Of a stretch of 64,000 nucleotides of DNA, positions 25,081 to 26,633 are shown in pieces (the stretch's first letter is position 1; the number at the start of each line of letters is the position of its first letter). The notes below the pieces were generated by a model. It saw only the letters and a program-made list of their open reading frames with translations. It searched no databases and was not told the origin of the DNA. The stretch is from Aquisphaera giovannonii (GTDB lineage: Bacteria; Planctomycetota; Planctomycetia; Isosphaerales; Isosphaeraceae). Made by a program: the position numbers and the translations under genes. Location of the stretch: the NCBI RefSeq assembly GCF_008087625.1, contig NZ_CP042997.1, positions 3,968,001 to 4,032,000 on the forward strand, read 5' to 3'.

Positions 25081-26217
25081 ATGTTGATGACCGGGTTGTC
25101 GGGGAACGAGATCTACTGCCTGGCCCAGCTCGGCTACGGGCCGGGGAACATCGTGGTGGGCAACAGCGTCCACTCGCTGGGATTGATCCGGGGCATCACG
25201 AGCGGCCTGAAGACGCTGGCCGGCGGCGAGATCGCGAGCGTCACCCAGCTCATCGTTGACGGCCGCCACGCCGCCATCAACCGCCTGGAGCAGGAGGCGC
25301 AGGAGGACAAGGCGCGGGGGCTCACGGGGGTGACCTCCGACCTGCGGCAGATCGGCAACCTCATGGAGTTCATCGCGCTCGGCTCGTCGGTGGACGGCGG
25401 GTCGCCGGGCGGGCCCTTCTTCTCGACGGCCTGCACCGGCCAGGACCTCTTCTGCCAGATCGACGCGGGCTACGAGCCCCGCCACTTCGTGATGGGCAAC
25501 GTCGCGTACGCGCTGGGGATCGGCCGGGGGATCTCCGGCGGCCTGAAGATGATCGCGCGGCGCGGCGAGATCAAGGAATTCTCCAATATGTACAACCACA
25601 CCCGCCACCTCGCCCTCGAGCGGCTGGAGGCCGAGGCCGCCGAGCGCGGGTGCAACGCGGTGGTGGACATCATCACGAAGATCCTCCCGTTCGGCGTCGG
25701 CGTTCGCGAGATGCTCATGGTGGGAACCGGGTCGTACAACCCCGCGCTCGGGCAGCCGAAGATCCCGGTCACCTCCGAGCTGACCGGCGAGGAGCTGTGG
25801 AACCTCACGCAGCTCGGCTACGCCCCGCTCCGCCTGGTGCTGGGGACGAGCGTCTACGCGCTGGGGCTGGCCGGCGGCATCGGCGCCTTCTTCCGGTCGT
25901 TCGCCCGCGGCGAGATCAACTCGGTGACGCGGCTCGTCTACGACGCCCGCGAGAACTGCCTGGACCACATCCGCCTGGAGGCGGAGGAGCTGAGGGCCGA
26001 CGGGGTCATCGGCGTGAAGCTCTTCATCTACGAGCTCGGCGGCGGGCTCGTCGAGGTCATGGCCATCGGCACGGCCATCCGCAAGCACGCCTCGGTCCGC
26101 ACGCGGAGCGACCAGCTCATCCCCCAGGCCATCATCCGCGACCGCGACACCTTCTTCGACGAGCCCCCGGCCGTCCCCGGCGCCCCCAAGGCGCGCTCGA
26201 TGAACCGCACGACCTGA
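25081..26217 (+). CDS. Protein with three tandem YbjQ (heavy-metal-binding, UPF0145) domains
   Basis: 378 residues made of three copies of a domain that is normally about 105 residues and stands alone. Each copy starts with a G/N-E-(I/L)-x-x-L/I-x-Q/D-x-GY-x-P-x-x-(I/F/L)-V-x-G-x-x-V-x-(S/A)-LG signature: LAQLGYGPGNIVVGNSVHSL (about 14-33), IDAGYEPRHFVMGNVAYALG (about 130-150) and LTQLGYAPLRLVLGTSVYAL (about 245-264). Each has the RG(I/E)xSG helix and a terminal strand with FIALGSS, MLMVGTG or VMAIGTA. Single YbjQ proteins form pentamers and were proposed to bind metals, without firm proof. It is cytoplasmic with no signal peptide. ATG 25081 follows GAAAGGCGGCGG. Confidence 0.85.
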   Translation: MLMTGLSGNEIYCLAQLGYGPGNIVVGNSVHSLGLIRGITSGLKTLAGGEIASVTQLIVDGRHAAINRLEQEAQEDKARGLTGVTSDLRQIGNLMEFIALGSSVDGGSPGGPFFSTACTGQDLFCQIDAGYEPRHFVMGNVAYALGIGRGISGGLKMIARRGEIKEFSNMYNHTRHLALERLEAEAAERGCNAVVDIITKILPFGVGVREMLMVGTGSYNPALGQPKIPVTSELTGEELWNLTQLGYAPLRLVLGTSVYALGLAGGIGAFFRSFARGEINSVTRLVYDARENCLDHIRLEAEELRADGVIGVKLFIYELGGGLVEVMAIGTAIRKHASVRTRSDQLIPQAIIRDRDTFFDEPPAVPGAPKARSMNRTT

Positions 26218-26633
26218 GCCGGACGGTGTTCGCCCCAAATGCTGGGGCCTCAATTTGACACCTCGCCCGGGAATCCATGAACACGTGACCACCCGCGTGA
26301 GCGGGTGGTTCGGACGGGCGAAGCCCCCAGCCTCCGGTGTGAGCCGGACGGGCATGCGGCGACGCCGGCGAGCCGGGAGGCGACGCCCGGCCTCGGATCG
26401 CACCGACGTGCGAGGCTGGAGGCTTCGCCCGTCCGAACCACGATCTGACGATCGTGGTCACCCGTGCATTCAGTGCAATACCGGCTGTCAAACTCTCCAT
26501 TATGGCTCCCCAACCATTGGGGACGATCGCGCCGGCCGTTGACCGCGGGCCCCTCCTTTCGATACCGTCGCCGCCGGGAGGGGAGCCCCAGTCTGTCCAG
26601 GGCTGAGCGGCCGCGAGCCGGCCGGGGTGGAGA
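26218..26633. other. Intergenic region carrying an inverted-repeat element
   Basis: 416 bases with no gene. It contains the structured repeat at 26285-26463. Outside that repeat are two short perfect hairpins of similar form, one at about 26235-26251 (GCCCCAAATGCTGGGGC) and one at about 26509-26523 (CCCCAACCATTGGGG), and the word TTTGACA appears in opposite orientation on the two sides (about 26257 and 26492). A larger element of about 290 bases is therefore possible. Confidence 0.55.
26285..26463. repeat. Structured inverted-repeat element (MITE-like), about 180 bases
   Basis: Long arms 26305-26334 and 26412-26441 are reverse complements over 30 bases with one mismatch (core GGTTCGGACGGGCGAAGC). 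Each end also has its own perfect 9-bp hairpin with a 4-base loop: ACCACCCGC-gtga-GCGGGTGGT at 26288-26309 and ACCACGATC-tgac-GATCGTGGT at 26437-26458. The outermost bases read GTGACCAC on the left and GTGGTCAC on the right. The symmetry at two levels is not explained by coding sequence. I infer a non-autonomous mobile or REP-type element. Confidence 0.75.

Follow-up and report, generated by a model that had tools for sequence, protein, structure and literature searches.

The closest described relatives of the protein reported here are the YbjQ proteins (UPF0145/DUF74, Pfam family YbjQ_1, PF01906; structures 1vr4, 2gtc, 1y2i and 3qkb). They are about 105 residues long and form homopentamers (PMC2954204, PMC4092069). 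Two such pentamers have been reviewed, and the subunits of one, 1vr4, differ in conformation (PMC2954204). The YbjQ fold is reported to be shared by DUF1471 (PMC4092069), and a thiamin phosphate synthase activity has been assigned to 'YbjQ' (PMC7084401). In the part of the literature covered, no explanation of YbjQ function was found, and the titles and abstracts on YbjQ, UPF0145 or PF01906 mentioned no multi-domain YbjQ. The synthase function was set aside; the protein concerned is presumably the unrelated YjbQ (UPF0047).

The window, that is, the whole stretch of 64,000 nucleotides of Aquisphaera giovannonii DNA that was analysed (NZ_CP042997.1), contains a gene whose product has the domain family, the fold and the core residues of canonical YbjQ. 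However, it carries three non-identical copies of the domain in one chain, together with extra N-terminal helices and a conserved C-terminal segment (Table 1). The one-domain architecture that is typical of YbjQ_1, though not strictly defining, is thus replaced by three domains, and these are kept in the relatives. This triple-YbjQ protein represents a variant of a common family that is old and maintained and, it appears, has not been described before.

Three YbjQ domains in one chain

The whole protein matched the YbjQ_1 profile in three separate stretches (132.6 bits, E 9.6e-39). When the repeats (R1, R2 and R3) were cut out and scored on their own, all of them passed the gathering cut-off of 23 bits, so the chain has three genuine YbjQ_1 domains (43.8-52.2 bits). 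The initial annotation, which was made from the sequence letters, had described three recognisable but diverged copies in tandem, and pairwise alignment bore this out. R1 and R2 were identical at 35 of 111 positions (z 25.5), R1 and R3 at 40 of 100 (z 30.4), and R2 and R3 at 31 of 98 (z 19.8), with 1000 shuffles for each pair. At 32-40% identity, 20-30 standard deviations over shuffled sequences, all three pairs are homologous. The opposite case, one true YbjQ domain with two chance similarities or an artefact, retains practically no probability, because each domain passes the Pfam cut-off alone and orthologues across phyla keep all three.

Table 1. Features of the triple-YbjQ gene (window positions) and of related loci (L numbers)
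Feature	Position	Strand	Details
Three-YbjQ protein gene	25081..26217	+	378 aa ORF; YbjQ_1 profile matches
Repeat 1	25081..25398	+	Residues 1-106; YbjQ_1 match 23-104; 48.3 bits alone
Extra helix, repeat 1	25102..25128	+	Residues 8-16, GNEIYCLAQ, ahead of the Pfam-matching part; AlphaFold
Repeat 2	25417..25740	+	Residues 113-220; YbjQ_1 match 136-217; 43.8 bits alone
Extra helix, repeat 2	25438..25464	+	Residues 120-128; AlphaFold, alignment
Repeat 3	25765..26088	+	Residues 229-336; YbjQ_1 match 250-334; 52.2 bits alone
Extra helix, repeat 3	25786..25812	+	Residues 236-244; AlphaFold, alignment
Conserved C-terminal segment behind repeat 3	26101..26151	+	Residues 341-357; alignment, pLDDT
Two-domain YbjQ operons, Myxococcota	L119:8548-12040, L120:6887-10612, L121:9097-12094	-	Three to four adjacent genes, some with one-base overlap
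Small gene beside two-domain YbjQ genes, Streptomyces	L139:5740-6150, L140:5764-6156		
Small gene beside two-domain YbjQ genes, Myxococcota	L119:8122-8517, L121:11686-11991	-	

In the AlphaFold model, every repeat follows the same plan of a short strand, the extra helix, a long strand, a long helix and two strands. The first 17 or 18 positions of the YbjQ_1 model find no match in the repeats, and the N-terminal part is therefore a variation on ordinary YbjQ. This part has the motif [ST]G-x-[ED]-h-[YFW]..GY-x-P (h, hydrophobic), and the start of the protein, MLMTGLSGNE, is kept in the relatives.

The alignment of the relatives revealed two kinds of conserved residues. Common to all repeats are G34/G146/G262, the GE pair at 49-50/162-163/277-278, T55/S168/T283, R62/R175/R290, E96/E210/E325 and G101/G215/G330; the GE pair, T/S55, R62, E96 and G101 with their equivalents look structural. 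Other invariant residues are peculiar to single repeats, such as C13 in R1, N172 and H176 in R2, and W240 and N241 in R3. In the helix region of R1, S7, G8, N9, E10, C13 and L14 are invariant, and in the C-terminal segment Q349 and D354 are invariant while Q345, P348 and A350 are almost so. Compared with three close relatives, synonymous changes were far in excess in every repeat (dN/dS 0.03-0.21). This means that no repeat is decaying and that purifying selection acts on all three. The idea that each copy has a separate role, raised in the initial annotation, would fit the repeat-specific invariant residues. Three distinct and strongly conserved copies in one chain also show which residues matter at each position.

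Distribution and age of the multi-domain forms

We counted as triple-YbjQ proteins those with a full-length co-linear match over about 360 residues, three YbjQ domains and the helix motifs SGNE, GQDL and TGEELW; all of this holds for the window protein. Forty-one full-length triple relatives were aligned, from Isosphaeraceae, other Planctomycetota, Myxococcota, Acidobacteriota and one small-genome gammaproteobacterial order, and the triple proteins are thus scattered over members of four bacterial phyla. A contig scan yielded 24 loci with relatives (a 25-member set), 51-95% identical to the window protein, and the nearest named relative was found in Aquisphaera insulae (95%). When whole genomes were searched, 12 of 45 Isosphaeraceae proved to have a triple of full length, as did one further genome (G258) from a sample of 392 Planctomycetota, 12 of 282 Myxococcota, 2 of 247 Acidobacteriota and 5 of 36 species of the gammaproteobacterial order, where one more copy is cut by a contig end.

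The triple seems to take the place of the ordinary protein. Eleven Isosphaeraceae genomes have only the triple, six only an ordinary single YbjQ and one has both, so that the triple is the sole YbjQ in 11 of the 12 that have it. Its domains were also the sole YbjQ in all 13 genomes checked individually, and a profile search of the A. giovannonii genome (10.5 Mb, three contigs) found no YbjQ beyond the domains of the triple. Of the 14 well-known control genomes searched, 10 or 11 have YbjQ.

Two Acidobacteriota copies are 69% identical to the window protein, as close as the copies of other Planctomycetota, which suggests horizontal transfer, although many of the records come from metagenome assemblies and could be mislabelled. 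As for mobile carriers, one viral contig had a match of only 24 residues, and no triple gene was found on plasmids, two Streptomyces plasmids having two-domain relatives instead.

The initial annotation had called the triplication old from the divergence of the copies. In a tree of 105 domains (113 columns), the R1, R2 and R3 domains of all sampled triples, from several phyla, formed one clade per position (SH-aLRT support 99, 100 and 96). The old age is thereby confirmed, and it follows that there was a single triplication, which came before the planctomycete, myxobacterial and gammaproteobacterial forms diverged. Judged by this tree, the fusion of the three domains is shown to have happened a single time, in an ancestor, after which the unit was inherited as a whole and spread across phyla, each position remaining distinct. 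The triples, the myxobacterial two-domain proteins and one single-domain planctomycete protein (L058) stood apart from ordinary YbjQ (support 94); the deeper branching order among these three was not resolved by the 113 columns. L058 has a helix motif of the same kind (TSDLSTRDLW..GYEP) and groups with the multi-domain forms, but has one domain, unlike the triple, and it is possibly a picture of the state before triplication.

That YbjQ proteins are single-domain holds as the common case, but fails as a rule, because two-domain proteins occur in Myxococcota and on the Streptomyces plasmids, in addition to the triples of the four phyla. The two-domain proteins belong to the same YbjQ subfamily as the triple (helix motif FTSDLSGQDFW..GYRP), and the myxobacterial ones group with it in the tree above. 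In contrast to the triple, a lone gene, they are encoded by sets of two to four adjacent genes, in many cases accompanied by a small candidate partner gene; each of the two Streptomyces plasmids has two two-domain genes. The first and second domains of the myxobacterial proteins separate on the tree, and the two-domain unit has therefore probably been duplicated as a gene. YbjQ domains have accordingly been joined in more than one form. The small gene, of about 130 codons, accompanies both Streptomyces pairs and two myxobacterial clusters (about 30% identity; E 1e-9 and 4e-7), and the Streptomyces copy had no Pfam match. We regard it as a candidate functional partner of the two-domain YbjQ.

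At five Planctomycetota loci (L061, L075, L077, L083 and L085), two single-domain YbjQ genes adjoin each other; such pairs might provide the starting material for fusions or for mixed rings.

A YbjQ-like domain is also known in C2CD5 (PF23025, YbjQ_2). Weak matches to this profile occurred in 15 of the 25 triple-family members (best E 0.0016). For the window protein there was no match at E<=10, and the best-scoring relative reached 26.2 bits, compared to a cut-off of 29.1 bits. A gammaproteobacterial triple gave E 1e-5, but ordinary single YbjQs matched about equally well (2e-4), and a special link between the triple, which lacks a C2 domain, and C2CD5 was therefore dropped.

Predicted fold and assembly

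The whole chain was predicted by AlphaFold as a single chain from an alignment of only 25 sequences, with a mean pLDDT of 82.6 and a pTM of 0.83. The domain cores mostly had block pLDDT values of 82-97, and residues 341-350 of the C-terminal segment were confidently ordered (pLDDT 94). The best match of the model in Foldseek was 1y2i (E 2.8e-4, prob 1.00), and all of the top 8 were YbjQ/DUF74 chains. A VIA comparison (Z 5.0, 99 residues, rmsd 3.8) confirmed the YbjQ fold, and the best PDB matches, 1y2i, 1vr4 and 3qkb, are subunits of YbjQ pentamers. The predicted monomer is thus one compact particle. Because freely tumbling domains would score a much lower pTM, we infer a fixed mutual arrangement of the three domains. 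The linkers from the last strand of one repeat to the next repeat are about 6-12 residues long. From the pTM and these short linkers in the single-chain model, the repeats may occupy three neighbouring seats of a ring.

The initial annotation had proposed that a fused trimer would change the assembly and might make a new type of ring. This is reasonable, since canonical YbjQ is homopentameric and three does not divide five, and by this analogy an altered ring assembly is plausible. We suggest, with a probability of roughly one half, that the protein is a trimer of YbjQ domains within one chain, of ancient origin, whose non-identical seats follow a fixed order, and that it works as a scaffold or sensor. 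The three domains, each with its extra N-terminal helix, would lie next to one another, held by the same YbjQ-YbjQ contacts as build the pentamer of ordinary YbjQ. The product would be a rigid, pseudo-symmetric arc or a closed particle, and two triple chains might complete a ring of six seats.

Two other arrangements have to be weighed against this single-chain trimer. Each repeat could form an ordinary homopentamer together with the corresponding repeats of four further chains, so that three linked rings would make a stack of 15 domains. The pentameric state of canonical YbjQ (PMC2954204, PMC4092069) and the evolution of each repeat as its own clade with the family core retained would agree with such a stack, but the high pTM of the whole chain suggests packing within the molecule and the linkers are short, and we consider the stack unlikely. 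The protein could instead be a compact monomer that has lost ring building. The confident single-chain model speaks for this, and so does the fact that triple domains are already known from a related class of folds (PMC4092069): YdgH/SssB, like the triple, repeats a small domain, DUF1471, three times in tandem. DUF1471 is another sequence family, with no profile match at E<=10 in the 25 triple-family members, window protein included. Against the compact monomer, the outer repeats R1 and R3 retain the core residues of R2, which would be needless with free outer faces, provided that these residues lie at interfaces. The loss of ring building is thus also an improbable outcome.

More tentatively, and with doubt prevailing, the multi-YbjQ proteins as a whole, the two-domain operons with the small partner gene included, might be a separate class of YbjQ assembly. 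Its members would form rings or arcs in which non-identical seats have a fixed order (two triples could, for instance, make a pseudo-hexamer in place of a pentamer), and would act as an asymmetric scaffold located at the inner membrane or close to it. As a natural obligate trimer, the triple offers a convenient means of studying the task of the YbjQ ring and the question of whether all subunits have to be equal.

Location, neighbours and the metal question

A C-terminal hydrophobic segment of the transmembrane type was found in all Myxococcota and gammaproteobacterial triples and in the G258 copy (borderline in L136), and was absent from the remaining triples; about half of the aligned members have no membrane anchor. 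In the anchored myxobacterial and gammaproteobacterial relatives, the conserved C-terminal segment is followed by a linker and then the transmembrane helix. One triple from the Acidobacteriota search (L125:9751-11121, minus strand) lacks this tail and has an N-terminal GYF_2-like domain, which scored 23.3 bits, slightly under the cut-off of 25.8. A hydropathy search of the window protein showed neither a signal peptide nor a transmembrane segment. Together, the tails, the GYF_2-like fusion and the absence of a visible signal peptide point to a cytoplasmic or inner-membrane-facing adaptor. The single-chain trimer that we favour would act in the cytoplasm; in Myxococcota and gammaproteobacteria, its tail would anchor it at the inner membrane. 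It would be a non-enzymatic scaffold or a ligand-sensing adaptor with a different target for each face, and would substitute for the ordinary single-domain YbjQ that is absent from nearly all genomes with the triple. The many members with no anchor, the small alignment behind the model and the lack of a conserved gene neighbour that would name a pathway weigh against this proposal.

A function in binding or storing metal might be read from the Pfam label 'putative heavy-metal-binding', and the invariant C13 and H176 and the nearly invariant C125 could be cited in its favour. However, R3 has N241 at the position of C13/C125 and E291 at that of H176, there is no CxxC and no His cluster, and the repeat alignment revealed no Cys/His site common to the three repeats. 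Metal binding by the triple therefore finds little support, and we think it very improbable as its function.

An all-against-all comparison of the ORFs around the relatives found no family-wide conserved gene neighbour. Arginine decarboxylase and dihydroorotate dehydrogenase were rejected as partners; they occur near three or four close Planctomycetota relatives only, which we take as shared synteny. In one gammaproteobacterial genome (L127:7980-9553), the triple lies 9 bp downstream of a short gene, probably for a secreted protein, and a Sel1-repeat protein gene, an arrangement not kept in other members of the order.

Just 3' of the triple gene in the window, a long hairpin was observed at 26288-26458 (folding z -9.4). 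Its 19-bp arm, GGTTCGGACGGGCGAAGCC, has 82 copies in the genome with 0-1 mismatch (control 0), mostly in inverted pairs about 114-131 bp apart, and the element resembles a palindromic repeat or MITE that is dispersed through the A. giovannonii genome.
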